IMG/VR virus record: IMGVR_UViG_3300031825_000378
Span: 1 to 38,255 of that record
Strand: one strand, 5' to 3'
DNA: 38,255 nt
DNA from: a virus
The position numbers and the translations under genes are program-made. A model generated the notes under the pieces. The model had not been told where the DNA came from and searched no databases. It saw nothing but the letters and a program-made list of their open reading frames with translations. Below, one piece after another: positions 6,939 through 34,523 of this stretch. Position 1 is the stretch's first letter, and every line of letters begins with the position of its first letter.

Positions 6939-7487
6939 CTATTCCTGAGGCTTTGGGGGCCTACCGGCGGCTCTTTCACCGGGGGTTGGCCCAACTCGGT
7001 TTCTAACGGCCTGCACCATTCCAAGAACAGGCAGGGATACAAGCGCCACGGGTATCAACCAGTACCATCGAGAGGTCACGCCGTACGCCACACCCACGTA
7101 GGCAGTCGTGGCGGCAGCCAGCAAAGCGATCGCGGAAACAGCTGCCCCCAGGAGTTGGCCAGTCTTGTCGCTCGCAAAAATGCCGGATAGCCTGTCCCCC
7201 TCGATCCGGGTCAACGTTTGCCGATGCGCGATATCGGATTCAAGTTGCTGACGCTCCATCTCGCGCCGGTGTGCAGCCTCACCCTCCGCCATTGCAATAA
7301 TGCGGTCTGCGGCGCCAGGGGAAAGCTGATCGTACTGGCGGAGAAGTTCAGGCGGGGGTAACGGACCCTGATGAAACTGGGCCTGCATCATCATCTGTTG
7401 ATGAACGACCTCGCTTGATTGCTGACCGATCGGACGAGGTGGTGGCTGAACGCTGGCGCGGTGGTTCTGCTTACCGCGAGCCATCAT
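6939..7487 (-). CDS. DUF2335 membrane protein
   Basis: A 182-aa predicted inner-membrane protein. The N-terminal part carries the DUF2335 signature (FHQGPLPPPELLRQYDQL followed by AADRIIAMAEGEAAHR), then a helical segment, then two transmembrane helices (about residues 110-130 and 137-157) and a Pro/Arg-rich tail. The family is common in prophages and mobile regions; its function is unknown. It is the last gene of the module that starts with the antirepressor and is closed by a terminator. Confidence 0.8.
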   Translation of the reverse strand: MMARGKQNHRASVQPPPRPIGQQSSEVVHQQMMMQAQFHQGPLPPPELLRQYDQLSPGAADRIIAMAEGEAAHRREMERQQLESDIAHRQTLTRIEGDRLSGIFASDKTGQLLGAAVSAIALLAAATTAYVGVAYGVTSRWYWLIPVALVSLPVLGMVQAVRNRVGPTPGERAAGRPPKPQE

Positions 7488-7692
7488 GCCGCTTTATTGA
7501 ACGGCCGAAGTCATCCCCGATGCGGCGCACGTCATTGCGCAGCGCTTCGTTCGACGAACGGGCCGGGCGATAAAGTGGGCTGATCTGAGGCTCGTGGACG
7601 GTCGGCGCCGAGAAGTTCGAAAACAGCGCCAACGGGGCAGCAACTCCACCCCAAAACCCGCCCCAAAAAGCCTTTTTGCTACGCTTTTTCAT
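7471..7692 (-). CDS. small basic protein with one hydrophobic segment
   Basis: A 73-aa protein, basic at both ends, with a Gly/Trp-rich hydrophobic stretch (AFWGGFWGGVAAPLALF). It overlaps the DUF2335 start by 17 nt, suggesting coupled expression. The start at 7692 gives a lysine-rich leader typical of membrane insertion; the open frame runs further upstream but across a probable promoter. Function unknown. Confidence 0.6.
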   Translation of the reverse strand: MKKRSKKAFWGGFWGGVAAPLALFSNFSAPTVHEPQISPLYRPARSSNEALRNDVRRIGDDFGRSIKRHDGSR

Positions 7693-31032: not shown

Positions 31033-31061
31033 ATTATTAGGCGTCGCCTAATGTATGTCAA
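31033..31061 (-). promoter_or_regulatory. PR promoter for cro
   Basis: Minus strand: TTGACA (31061-31056), 17 bp, AATAAT (31038-31033). Predicted start is about 31027, the cro ATG itself. Operator OR1 fills the spacer and OR2 touches the -35. Confidence 0.8.
31036..31052. promoter_or_regulatory. operator OR1
   Basis: ATTAGGCGTCGCCTAAT, a perfect 17-bp palindrome about a central T. It overlaps the spacer and -10 of PR. An identical copy is at OL. Confidence 0.85.
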
Positions 31062-31076
31062 TAGGAATTGCCTAAT
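31060..31076. promoter_or_regulatory. operator OR2
   Basis: AATAGGAATTGCCTAAT matches the OR1 palindrome at 13 of 17 positions. It is 24 bp centre to centre from OR1 and lies between PR and the CI promoter. Confidence 0.7.
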
Positions 31077-31081
31077 GCGGC

Positions 31082-31087
31082 TATACA
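31082..31087 (+). promoter_or_regulatory. -10 of the CI maintenance promoter
   Basis: TATACA lies between OR2 and OR3. The -35 is poor, as expected for an activator-dependent PRM. The message would begin near 31094 with a leader of about 10 nt and no RBS. Confidence 0.5.
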
Positions 31088-31095
31088 AGGCGAAA

Positions 31096-31112
31096 GTTAG
31101 GCAATGCTTAAT
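31096..31112. promoter_or_regulatory. operator OR3
   Basis: GTTAGGCAATGCTTAAT matches the palindrome at 12 of 17 positions and covers the CI start codon. Binding here would shut off CI synthesis. Confidence 0.65.
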
Positions 31113-32204
31113 GGAACTGACCTCGGAGCTGCCATTAAGGCAGCCATTGAAAAGAAGATCGCCAGCGGAGCCGTCGCTTCGCAGGCCGCGATCGCACGTC
31201 ATTTCAATGTCAGGCCACCTTCCATCCACGACTGGATAAAGAAGGGCTCGATCTCCAAAGACAAACTCCCGGAGCTGTGGCGCTATTTCTCGGACGTCGT
31301 GGGCCCGGAACATTGGGGCCTAAAGTCTTGGCCAGACATGGGGTCGTCCATAGCATCAGAGTCGGCGCCTCAGCACAAGCCGTGGCCTTTCAAGACGATC
31401 CCCGAAGACCAGATCCATGAGCTACCGGAGTCCCAGCTAAGCGCCCTTGAGGGCGCAATCCAGCTGGCTATCGCCCAGATGAGGCTCGGGATCCAGGTTT
31501 CAGCGCAACCGCTCGCTACGCCGACCCGAGTTTCTGTACCGATTCGTTCGCACAAGCCGGGCGGCCTAGTCGATATGGACCATGCCGACGATCCATTCCC
31601 CATGCGAATCCAAGGCCTCCCCCCTGCCCCGTGGGAAGGCGGAAATACAACACACCAGGCAGAAGCCAATCCCAAGATCCGGATCAGCACCCAAACTGGG
31701 GTGATCGCAAATGTCGGCCCAGGCGAACCTTACGCAGCGAACGACAAGTTCGACAAGGTGCCAGAGATGGCCGACGTGCGGCTTGCCGCCGGCGATGGCA
31801 TCGAGAACCACATCGAGGAACAGACTGGCGTGATGCACTTCCGCCGCTCGTTCCTGCGCGCAGTGGGTGCAGATGCCGGGAAAGCCAGGGTTGTCTACGC
31901 CAAAGGCGATAGCATGGAGCCCATCATTCGTGATGGAGCTGCGCTGCTAGTCGTGCCGAACGAGGATCTGACCGTACGCGACCTCGCCGCGGGCGGCGTC
32001 TACGCCATCAACTACGACGGCAAGATGATCGTGAAGACGGTGACGCGGGATCGCCTGACGAAGCAATGGGTGGCGCGGTCATTCAATCCGGCTTACCCCG
32101 ACATCCCACTTGAGAATGGCACGCCTGTGCGCGTGCTGGGCCAGGTTGTCTGGTCTGGCGCCAGGTTGCGGGATGATGAGGCGGGACAGTGGGTGAGGTC
32201 CTGA
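31104..32204 (+). CDS. CI prophage repressor, S24 autocleaving
   Basis: A 366-aa repressor. Residues about 18-50 are a helix-turn-helix (GAVASQAAIARHFNVRPPSI). The C-terminal S24/LexA domain holds Ser270 in YAKGDSMEPII and Lys311 in MIVKTV, with a probable cleavage bond Ala229-Gly230 in RLAAGDG. RecA-stimulated self-cleavage would induce the prophage. It is long for a CI (lambda 237 aa) because of an about 130-residue linker. The ATG at 31104 lies within OR3, with no RBS. Confidence 0.9.
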   Translation: MLNGTDLGAAIKAAIEKKIASGAVASQAAIARHFNVRPPSIHDWIKKGSISKDKLPELWRYFSDVVGPEHWGLKSWPDMGSSIASESAPQHKPWPFKTIPEDQIHELPESQLSALEGAIQLAIAQMRLGIQVSAQPLATPTRVSVPIRSHKPGGLVDMDHADDPFPMRIQGLPPAPWEGGNTTHQAEANPKIRISTQTGVIANVGPGEPYAANDKFDKVPEMADVRLAAGDGIENHIEEQTGVMHFRRSFLRAVGADAGKARVVYAKGDSMEPIIRDGAALLVVPNEDLTVRDLAAGGVYAINYDGKMIVKTVTRDRLTKQWVARSFNPAYPDIPLENGTPVRVLGQVVWSGARLRDDEAGQWVRS

Positions 32205-32208
32205 AATG

Positions 32209-32229
32209 AAAAAACCGCCTCAAAGGCGG
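32209..32229 (-). terminator. terminator of the membrane-protein cassette
   Basis: CCGCCT/AGGCGG stem with a 3-nt loop; on the minus strand six T follow. It lies between the converging CI and 102-aa genes and mainly ends the minus transcript. Confidence 0.8.
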
Positions 32230-32230
32230 C

Positions 32231-32539
32231 TTAACTGATCTTGTCGGCTTGCCCGTTCGTCTTCTCGAAAGTTCGCTTTAGAATCACGATGAGGGAGAAC
32301 AGCCCAGCCAAGGAGATGACAATCTTGTTCCCGGTCAGCAGCATCTGCAAGGCCTTGGTGGATATGGCCGTCAGGGATAGTAGCAGCATGGGAAAGATGA
32401 CCACGCCATAACTCACGTCACCAGCAAACGATTCCCACGAACGCCGACATTTGTCCAGCCAGCAACGGAACGCTGCATAGAGAATGGCCACCGCGATGGT
32501 GGCCATATCTACCCAGTTACCGTCTACTAACTCCGACAT
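32231..32539 (-). CDS. three-helix membrane protein in lysogenic cassette
   Basis: A 102-aa protein with hydrophobic helices at about 12-28, 43-60 and 72-88 and a charged C-terminus. Its ATG shares a base with the stop of the 62-aa membrane gene (TGATG), so the two are coupled. It converges on CI. No family recognised. The place beside CI, opposite to lytic genes, suggests expression in the lysogen, for example as an exclusion protein. Confidence 0.65.
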   Translation of the reverse strand: MSELVDGNWVDMATIAVAILYAAFRCWLDKCRRSWESFAGDVSYGVVIFPMLLLSLTAISTKALQMLLTGNKIVISLAGLFSLIVILKRTFEKTNGQADKIS

Positions 32540-32727
32540 CAGACGAGATGAACCACCTTGACGAGCAATGCCGTCGCAATGCCACCGACGATTGCGCCCA
32601 TCGAGTTCATGTCCAAACCCGCCAGATTGACATCAAATTTTCCCAGAAAGGCCCCAGCCGCAGCCGCGCCAAAGATAGCGCCCGCGACAACCCAACGCGC
32701 GTACTCTAGTTTCTTGACTGGTTTCAT
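32539..32727 (-). CDS. two-helix glycine-rich membrane protein
   Basis: A 62-aa protein with a basic start (MKPVKKLEYARW), then two Gly/Ala-rich helices (VVAGAIFGAAAAGAFLG and GAIVGGIATALLVKVV). AAGGAG gives a strong RBS before the ATG at 32727. Small paired membrane genes beside a repressor recall lambda rexAB by position only. Confidence 0.65.
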   Translation of the reverse strand: MKPVKKLEYARWVVAGAIFGAAAAGAFLGKFDVNLAGLDMNSMGAIVGGIATALLVKVVHLV

Positions 32728-32784
32728 GGCTTTCTCCTTTCTGCACAAGGGCTCCCTCCGTTTCGTATAGGCGTGACAATGCAT

Positions 32785-33004
32785 CGAAAGGGGTGGGGAG
32801 TGGTCCTGGAGGTGACTAAGCCGCCTCTCCGGCTACTGCGAAACCCCAGTTGCTGGGGCCTTAGTTGCTCAAATAAGAGCAAGTCCAGAATATAGCCGAT
32901 CCATTCGAAATTCAATAGCTCTGCTTATATTTAGGGACATAACAAGCCACCTCCGGGTGGCTTTTTGTTGGCCGTTGCGTCGCGCGTGGCGCTACCGTGC
33001 TTGC
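32785..33004. other. 220-bp intergenic region with hairpins
   Basis: No convincing gene. It holds a CCCCAG/CTGGGG hairpin (near 32844-32858), a perfect inverted repeat TTGCTC/GAGCAA with a 6-bp centre (32865-32882), an A+T-rich stretch (32886-32942) that could contain the promoter of the membrane cassette, and a terminator at its right side. Confidence 0.5.
32945..32966 (+). terminator. hairpin terminator
   Basis: AGCCACC/GGTGGCT stem, TCCG loop, then five T on the plus strand. The stem resembles those before the sheath and capsid genes. It has no plus-strand gene just upstream; it may end CI read-through, end a small RNA, or work from the minus side behind the zinc-ribbon gene. Confidence 0.65.
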
Positions 33005-33529
33005 TTAGTTGAGCCGCCCTTCTTTCGCCCGGACCGCCAGCACCGTCTTGTTGTCTTTCGCCAAGTCGCACTCGTAGGTCACGGTGGTGAAGGCGCCGAA
33101 GCCGTTCTGGAACTGAGCCTTGTCACCAATATAGGTAATCACCCCGGACTTCTTGTCCTTCCAGCGGAAACGGTCGAACTTGGATTCTAGGAAGCTATCC
33201 GTCCACTTGAAGTCATGCTTTGCTAGCTTCTCGACTTCTCGGGCGCAGTACACGCCGGCCGATACAACACCCGCATTCCCCAAGCATGTTAGATCCGTCG
33301 CGTCGCAGGACGACGCCTCGGTTTTGGATGCGGACGCACCTGGCTTGGAGGCATCACCTTTATCCCCGCCAAGCACAAAATAAACGATCCCGAGGGTGAC
33401 GACCCCGATCAGCAGCGGGTGCGCCTTCTTCTTGGGGATTGAGATCTTGACGGGCGCGCCACAGCTAGCGCATGTCTTGGCCTTATCGCTGACCTCTTTG
33501 CCGCATTCCTTGCAAGTGATGAGAGCCAT
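33005..33529 (-). CDS. zinc-ribbon membrane protein in lysogenic cassette
   Basis: A 174-aa protein. Residues 6-24 are a zinc ribbon (CKECGKEVSDKAKTCASC); one transmembrane helix follows at about 37-54 (HPLLIGVVTLGIVYFVLGG); then a soluble domain with four Cys (SSCDATDLTCLG, VYCAREV, TYECDLA). The C-terminal domain is thus probably exported with disulfides. AAGGTG precedes the ATG. It lies between CI and OL on the minus strand; function unknown, exclusion or conversion likely by position. Confidence 0.75.
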   Translation of the reverse strand: MALITCKECGKEVSDKAKTCASCGAPVKISIPKKKAHPLLIGVVTLGIVYFVLGGDKGDASKPGASASKTEASSCDATDLTCLGNAGVVSAGVYCAREVEKLAKHDFKWTDSFLESKFDRFRWKDKKSGVITYIGDKAQFQNGFGAFTTVTYECDLAKDNKTVLAVRAKEGRLN

Positions 33530-33662: not shown

Positions 33663-33679
33663 ATTAGGCGACGCCTATT
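33663..33679. promoter_or_regulatory. operator OL2
   Basis: ATTAGGCGACGCCTATT matches OR1 at 15 of 17 positions. It overlaps the start of the PL -35. Confidence 0.8.
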
Positions 33680-33706
33680 GACGAAACATTAGGCGTCGCC
33701 TAATAT
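33678..33706 (+). promoter_or_regulatory. PL promoter of the rightward arm
   Basis: TTGACG (33678-33683), 17 bp, TAATAT (33701-33706), with a predicted start near 33713. OL1 covers the spacer and most of the -10, and OL2 the edge of the -35, so CI would fully repress it. Confidence 0.8.
33688..33704. promoter_or_regulatory. operator OL1
   Basis: ATTAGGCGTCGCCTAAT, identical to OR1 over all 17 bp, 25 bp centre to centre from OL2. Confidence 0.85.
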
Positions 33707-33712
33707 TCACCC

Positions 33713-34070
33713 ATGCGCTGCAAACACAGCGAAGCAAGACCTCCACGGAGCCGCACCCTCGGGACACCTCGGCGGCAGACGTTAGCCCACACACATAAAG
33801 AGTCGGCATGGAGAAGAGGCAGCAGCACCAGCAGTACCGCTCTTTACTCGCCTGGGAGACCAACCAGGCCGTCGTTGGCGAGGACAGTAAATCGCACTGC
33901 AGCCACCCGGGCTGGATATGAATAGCGGGGAGCCGTGGAGGCCCGGAAACGGACAAGACGGGGCAGCGAATGAAAGCTCGCTGCGATGAAGGGTGGTAGC
34001 CCCACCCTTCCAGATTCATCTGAATGCCAACTCATCCGAGTTCCGGCATTTTCATGAACTTGGAGAAACC
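33713..34070 (+). other. PL leader with hairpins and mini-ORFs
   Basis: About 360 nt between the PL start and the DUF1566 gene. It holds two strong hairpins, GCAGCGA/TCGCTGC (33963-33984) and AAGGGTGG/CCACCCTT (33989-34009), a weaker one at 34011-34022, and a chain of mini-ORFs joined by ATGA overlaps. This is where lambdoid phages keep nut-like sites or an N gene; I cannot identify either with certainty. Confidence 0.5.
33808..33921 (+). CDS. 37-aa leader mini-protein
   Basis: A 37-residue protein (start MEKRQQHQQYRSLLAWETNQ, end SHCSHPGWI) with about 83 percent GC at third codon positions, like true genes here, and AAGAG before its ATG. Its stop overlaps the ATG of a 23-codon ORF. The basic, Gln-rich N-terminus could bind RNA. 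It lies in the N-gene position, but no antiterminator family can be named. Confidence 0.4.
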   Translation: MEKRQQHQQYRSLLAWETNQAVVGEDSKSHCSHPGWI

Positions 34071-34523
34071 ATGAGCAACGCATTCGTAGTTGGCCAGTAC
34101 GCAGAAGGCCAGGGCGGCATCTACATCGGGCTGACAGCCCAAGGTCGCCACCTGTTCGCCGCGGCTGCCCCGCTGGATGGTGAATTCGAATTCGGCGGCT
34201 ACGGCGACAAGCTGGAAGGCTATTCCGACCTGGATGGCGCCGAGAACACCCGCAAGCTGCTGGAGCGCGGCAACCACCCGGCGGCGCTGGCTGCATCCGA
34301 GTACGCCGCCGACGGCCACAAGGATTTCTATCTGCCGTCCCATCGCGAACTGCTGCAAGTAGTGGCTGCGGAGGGCTTTGATGACGACGGCGAGTACACC
34401 TGGACCTCGACGCCCTACGGCTCCAACGACGCCTGGGCGGTGTATTTCGAGAACGGCCTCGTCGACGACTGGAGCCGCAACTTCGAGTTCCGAGTTCGTC
34501 CCGTCCGCAGCATCATCGCTTGA
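34071..34523 (+). CDS. DUF1566 domain protein
   Basis: A 150-aa protein with a C-terminal DUF1566 domain, a C-type-lectin-like fold: KDFYLPSHRELLQVVAAEGF, YTWTSTPYGSNDAWAVYFEN and FEFRVRPVRSI. There is no signal peptide. GGAG precedes the ATG, and it is the first substantial gene of the PL arm. The fold often binds ligands, but the role of these small phage proteins is unknown. No reverse transcriptase is present, so it is not a visible diversity-generating target. Confidence 0.75.
   Translation: MSNAFVVGQYAEGQGGIYIGLTAQGRHLFAAAAPLDGEFEFGGYGDKLEGYSDLDGAENTRKLLERGNHPAALAASEYAADGHKDFYLPSHRELLQVVAAEGFDDDGEYTWTSTPYGSNDAWAVYFENGLVDDWSRNFEFRVRPVRSIIA

Follow-up and report, generated by a model that had tools for sequence, protein, structure and literature searches.

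A conserved two-gene membrane protein family in the rex-equivalent slot of a phage genome: a candidate exclusion system

The superinfection-exclusion membrane proteins of prophages, such as P22 SieA, P22 SieB, and HK97 gp15, are small and reside in the inner membrane, and each is encoded in a temperate phage as a unit of its own. They act as single proteins (SieB with an internal Esc), and P22 sieB lies just beyond OL. In lambda, where the map order is OL-rexB-rexA-cI-OR, the rexAB genes are cotranscribed with cI. Lambda RexAB, P. putida RexAB, CarolAnn gp43/44, and Sbash gp30/31 all consist of two genes, include a membrane component, and occupy the CI-OL or a repressor-linked slot, and in RexAB, CarolAnn gp43/44, and P. 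putida RexAB a membrane effector is paired with a soluble sensor (PMC6426606, PMC12894663). In BstA and other defense hotspots, an accessory slot by the prophage repressor holds defense genes, and a short DNA element, aba, precedes bstA (PMC8585504, PMC9122126).

Here, we analyze a locus of this type in a 38,255-bp virus sequence (IMG/VR record IMGVR_UViG_3300031825_000378), the whole of which we call the window. Three genes, A, B, and C, lie on the minus strand between CI and OL, convergent with CI. B and C resemble the Sie proteins in being small, predicted inner-membrane proteins that form an independent unit, but they are a pair, whereas SieA, SieB, and gp15 work singly. With the Rex-type systems they share the two-gene makeup, the membrane component, and the repressor-linked slot. 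Unlike them, B-C has no soluble DNA-binding sensor (RexA-like or DUF4747), both of its products being transmembrane (TM) proteins, and RexB is a four-TM effector, whereas C has three TM segments and B two. In addition, B-C is on the strand opposite to CI in the window, in contrast to rexAB, although it is codirectional with CI in two relatives (L031 and L033). The BstA system consists of one protein, which is not a membrane protein; the leader upstream of B-C is common to unrelated cassettes, and aba-like activity is not known for it.

The locus between CI and OL

Table 1. Positions of the genes and signals at the locus within the window.
Feature	Position	Strand	Details
Gene A	33529-33005	-	174 aa; open reading frame
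Gene B	32727-32539	-	62 aa, counted from the ATG preceded by a Shine-Dalgarno sequence
Gene C	32539-32231	-	102 aa
CI-like repressor	31104-32204	+	S24 peptidase domain; convergent with C
OL	33664-33703		Two CI-type operator palindromes around a PL-like promoter
PL-like promoter at OL	33678-33706	+	TTGACG-17-TAATAT
OR	31037-31111		Matching operator palindromes in the interval between a Cro-like gene and CI
Leader directly upstream of B	32724-32843	-	Core TTCGCAGTAGCCGNNGNGGCGGC
Intrinsic terminator right after C	32212-32232	-	9-bp stem, then TTTTTTCATTT

The repressor matches both PHROG_4 (E 1.9e-32) and Peptidase_S24 (E 1.2e-13). The operator TTAGGCGWCGCCTAA occurs four times with ≤3 mismatches, at 31037 and 31097 in OR and at 33664 and 33689 in OL, a count reached in 0 of 100 shuffles, and the assignment of OL made in the initial annotation is borne out by these copies. 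As a 15-bp palindrome, TTAGGCGTCGCCTAA occupies 31037-31051 and, in degenerate form, 31097-31111 in OR, as well as 33664-33678 and 33689-33703 in OL (four observed vs 0.6 expected by chance). Its recurrence at OL and OR gives a candidate operator code for the CI repressor. The sole sigma-70-like promoter found between 31.9 and 34.1 kb is the one at OL, which is directed away from A, and no CI operator was found upstream of B.

By map order, the A/B/C slot corresponds to the rexAB slot of lambda, so the earlier description of this as a place for lysogeny genes such as rex holds, but B-C runs against CI. Since the two are convergent here, B-C is not read from the CI promoter, unlike rexAB.

Just downstream of PL, an Lcl_C/DUF1566-like protein (PHROG_4245) is encoded at 33993-34523. 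The sister phage L002 has several partial or full PHROG_4245-type copies (701-2280, 6967-7479) with similar C-terminal ends, and the family could be one on which diversification or duplication acts.

The B-C pair and the resident gene A

Coordinates, strand, and hydropathy confirm that B and C are two coupled small membrane proteins opposite to CI. The mechanical open reading frame of B starts at 32784. In the window the start of C overlaps the stop of B (TGATG), and a comparison with L012 (IMG/VR 2765235877), where B and C are 81% and 66% identical in amino acids, shows that both loci keep this overlap (TGATG/TAATG) along with a GGAG ribosome-binding site. Between the same two loci, dN/dS is 0.13/1.69 (∼0.08) for B and 0.23/2.46 (∼0.09) for C; both are genuine genes under strong purifying selection.

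By hydropathy, B has two TM segments forming a glycine-rich hairpin, with G20, G25, G29, D39, G44, A45, and G48 invariant. C has three, preceded by the N-terminus (I/V)DGNW(V/F)D, and its invariant residues are D6, G7, N8, W9, D11, Y21, F49, P50, S60, K72, A78, G79, and L83. Hydropathy and charge together suggest an N-in/C-in topology for B and N-out/C-in for C; the AlphaFold model of C is of low quality, with a pLDDT of 60.6.

A profile built from just these two C proteins led to five further loci (L029-L033) at 25-39% identity. B had no part in that search, and yet a B-like gene of 58-65 aa lies directly upstream on the same strand in all five. A two-sequence B profile detects four of these distant B proteins at E ≤1.5e-3 and the one in L029 at 0.41 only. 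In the reverse direction, profiles from the five distant members rank window B first at E 3.5e-9 and window C first at E 4.6e-21 across all six frames. A B homologue thus precedes C in seven of seven loci, which belong to otherwise different phages, and the pair is kept down to ∼30% identity. B-C is a self-contained two-gene unit, separable from A, and constitutes an undescribed and searchable membrane family.

A repressor gene adjoins the pair in five of the seven loci (the window, L012, L029, L031, and L033). In L031 and L033, B-C is downstream of and codirectional with CI, while in L012 and L029 it is convergent with a repressor. The remaining two members are outside the immunity region: that of L030 precedes the terminase genes, and that of L032 is close to RusA. 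A search with C of phages, plasmids, and genome contigs gave no match, nor did a DNA similarity search of phages with 29-37 kb. Searches with profile A5 found none in 399 Burkholderiales and 369 Gammaproteobacteria genomes, a sample of 768 that may contain few likely hosts (Bordetella, Achromobacter). One weak match with profile A1 was dropped (three stops).

Searches of Pfam, PHROGs, and PADLOC turned up nothing credible for either protein and no known toxin or antitoxin domain, and C has no match among PDB sequences. Profile alignment of B and C with RexA, RexB, SieA, SieB, gp15, gp17, and GtrA by hhalign, for which true family members score 96-99%, gave no relation: the probability is ≤1.0% for RexA and 0.7% and 0.1% for RexB, and E is 0.19 or worse for the Sie proteins (SieA, SieB, and gp15). 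The statement in the initial annotation that no known exclusion system is similar in sequence therefore stands for PADLOC and for the proteins aligned here.

Gene A had been read as a zinc-ribbon, TM, Cys-rich protein, and we agree: it matches Pfam Zn_Ribbon_1 at 30.2 bits (cut-off 25) and has one TM segment at 36-54 and four further Cys residues. It is modeled as a cytoplasmic zinc ribbon, a TM segment, and a periplasmic alpha+beta domain, the latter C-terminal and confident (pLDDT ∼80-92 beyond residue 80). A fold search with A found nothing significant in the PDB and two matches at E<1e-3 in BFVD, a Gordonia phage lipoprotein and a zinc-ribbon protein.

What does not survive is the view of the three genes as one cassette. 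A is present at 87-100% identity in the sister phages L002-L006 (100% for the L002 protein), all of which are without B-C, whereas L012 has B-C and no A. This rules out A+B+C as a single cassette; A is the resident and B-C the swappable insert. Because the A block of L002 shares 99% DNA identity, ending near the terminator downstream of A, vs 77-84% for the flanking genes, the comparison points to recombination around A. Distant A relatives (L007, L008, and three contigs of Burkholderiales, L013-L015) share their strand with an HTH or S24 repressor and lie just downstream of it, which suggests lysogenic expression of the A family.

Upstream of B-C in L012, a secreted 123-aa protein (7317-7688) has PHROG_38187 in common with A; A matches the N-terminal zinc-ribbon half of this family and the L012 protein the C-terminal half.

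The exchange slot and the leader

The sister phages differ in what lies between A and CI. L002 holds DUF1828 and DUF6978 genes, which match the PADLOC candidates PDC-M24B and PDC-M24A (E 1e-15 and 1e-7), together with a PHROG_16260-type gene. L003 has a HigBA-like pair, made up of a toxin-like gene and its HTH partner, L004 a ParA-like ATPase and a PHROG_16260 gene, and L005 a 201-aa gene; L006 has no annotated insert and is the empty example. PDC-M24A/B thus occupy the same A-CI slot, but they are soluble and unrelated to B-C, and, as with all inserts in L002-L005, they are codirectional with CI. Like B-C in the window, the inserts of two further phages, L042 (a DUF4760 membrane protein) and L043 (HicBA), converge with CI. 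In the Bordetella avium phages IFTN1, 6, and 7, the second gene after the repressor belongs to the TerB family.

To judge from this gene content, the slot is an exchange site for toxin-antitoxin pairs and candidate defense genes. The arrangement is that of a moron: A and CI flank differing content in L002-L006, one of them empty, and a terminator follows C. L002 and L042 match Bordetella and Achromobacter phages, which suggests a Bordetella/Achromobacter host lineage. In phages of this type, the rex-equivalent slot is the exchange site, with two inserts behind the B-C leader or its core.

A single family lies directly downstream of CI in L002 (9954-10616), L004 (9896-10576), and L005 (8614-9219). 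The L004 member is PHROG_16260, and those of L002 and L005 share a similar C-terminus, ...WCPNFHPEEFRKL. Behind each of these PHROG_16260-type genes, the sister phages have different further genes.

The 120-bp leader of B is 89% identical in L042 (5625-5744), where it stands before the DUF4760 gene. Its core also precedes B-C in L012 and HicBA in L043 (2967-2989). Further core matches were judged coincidental: those in L038 and L041 are inside an unrelated coding gene, and that in L039 is at the start of a small open reading frame in the tail region. A scan of the leader revealed no consensus sigma-70 promoter, its DNA was found in none of 399 genomes, and its RNA folding is not exceptional (z -1.1 and -0.7). 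Rfam gave nothing at the gathering threshold on the window, and weak matches to MIR6297 and P9 are due to chance.

Candidate functions of B-C

According to the initial annotation, the locus is worth exploring for an undescribed anti-phage function. This is reasonable for B-C, a good candidate for a system that shields its host cell against other phages; A is a separate family, although it too is linked to repressors in other genomes. The slot and the signature of the pair also offer a concrete place to find more prophage-encoded exclusion systems.

Our preferred explanation, which we hold tentatively and at slightly less than an even chance, is that B-C is a moron-type accessory pair, transcribed in the lysogen, whose products form one inner-membrane complex that blocks infection by other phages. 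The pair would have been plugged into the equivalent of the lambda rex slot and is probably expressed by the prophage. Because a CI operator is absent upstream of B-C, we infer that a promoter of its own, within the leader, drives its transcription in the lysogen. B, a hairpin, and C, a three-TM protein whose DGNWxD end is predicted to lie on the periplasmic side, would assemble in the inner membrane, and the complex would then block a step of infection. This could be an entry block, as for SieA or HK97 gp15, or a triggered leak of the membrane, as for RexB; since a soluble sensor gene is absent, we favor the entry block, without strong grounds. Superinfection exclusion is the likeliest inferred role, and it is supported by the toxin-antitoxin and candidate defense genes in the same slot of sister phages. 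Against a defense reading, slots next to a repressor also house non-defense genes.

An alternative, rather unlikely in our estimation, is that B-C is a lysogenic-conversion pair with another role, in envelope or stress physiology or in blocking a surface function, and has no direct anti-phage action. Envelope proteins do occur in the same positions, namely A, the secreted 123-aa protein and a BamE-like lipoprotein in L012, and Adhesin_E in L031, and these neighbors are expected to be expressed in the lysogen; the swappable content of the slot, however, leans to toxin-antitoxin and candidate defense genes. An abortive-infection or toxin-antitoxin-like pair, in which C probably permeabilizes the membrane when released or triggered and B keeps it closed, would agree with the fixed order and translational coupling, as expected of a stoichiometric pair, and has repressor-linked precedents in RexAB, CarolAnn gp43/44, and P. 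putida RexAB (PMC6426606, PMC12894663). Those precedents carry a soluble sensor (RexA, DUF4747-like), whereas B is a 62-aa membrane protein, and with the lack of any hhalign relation to RexA or RexB we regard this mode of action as improbable.

As small proteins with two and three TM segments, B and C could also tune lysis as a second holin/antiholin-like pair. The hhalign score of B with the holin of the window is 19.1, marginally above the null maximum of 16.8 among ∼75 unrelated TM open reading frames, and one C member weakly matches the holin family PHROG_1299 (E 0.15). The window, however, has a complete lysis cassette at 216-1371, apart from B-C (holin PHROG_175, 3.5e-26; endolysin, 7e-61; Rz/Rz1), and with the lysis genes elsewhere and B-C adjoining a repressor, convergent with CI, we give a role in lysis hardly any credence. 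In the L012 phage, which has no family match to the endolysin and holin families of the window, a lysis-like block (judged by eye) is ∼27 kb from B-C. Scarcely more credible is the idea that the genes in the slot are for the most part transient passengers with no function under selection in the phage: turnover in the slot is high, with one empty example (L006), but B-C is under strong purifying selection and conserved to ∼30% identity.

A broader form of the exclusion reading, which we consider a long shot, is a plug-in system in which the common leader would signal lysogenic expression or aba-like self-immunity and drive interchangeable anti-phage modules; B-C would then be a new, sensor-free class of two-protein inner-membrane exclusion. 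In L042, homology to the leader extends as far as the start codon; in that phage, the codon begins an open reading frame of 20 codons that overlaps the DUF4760 gene.
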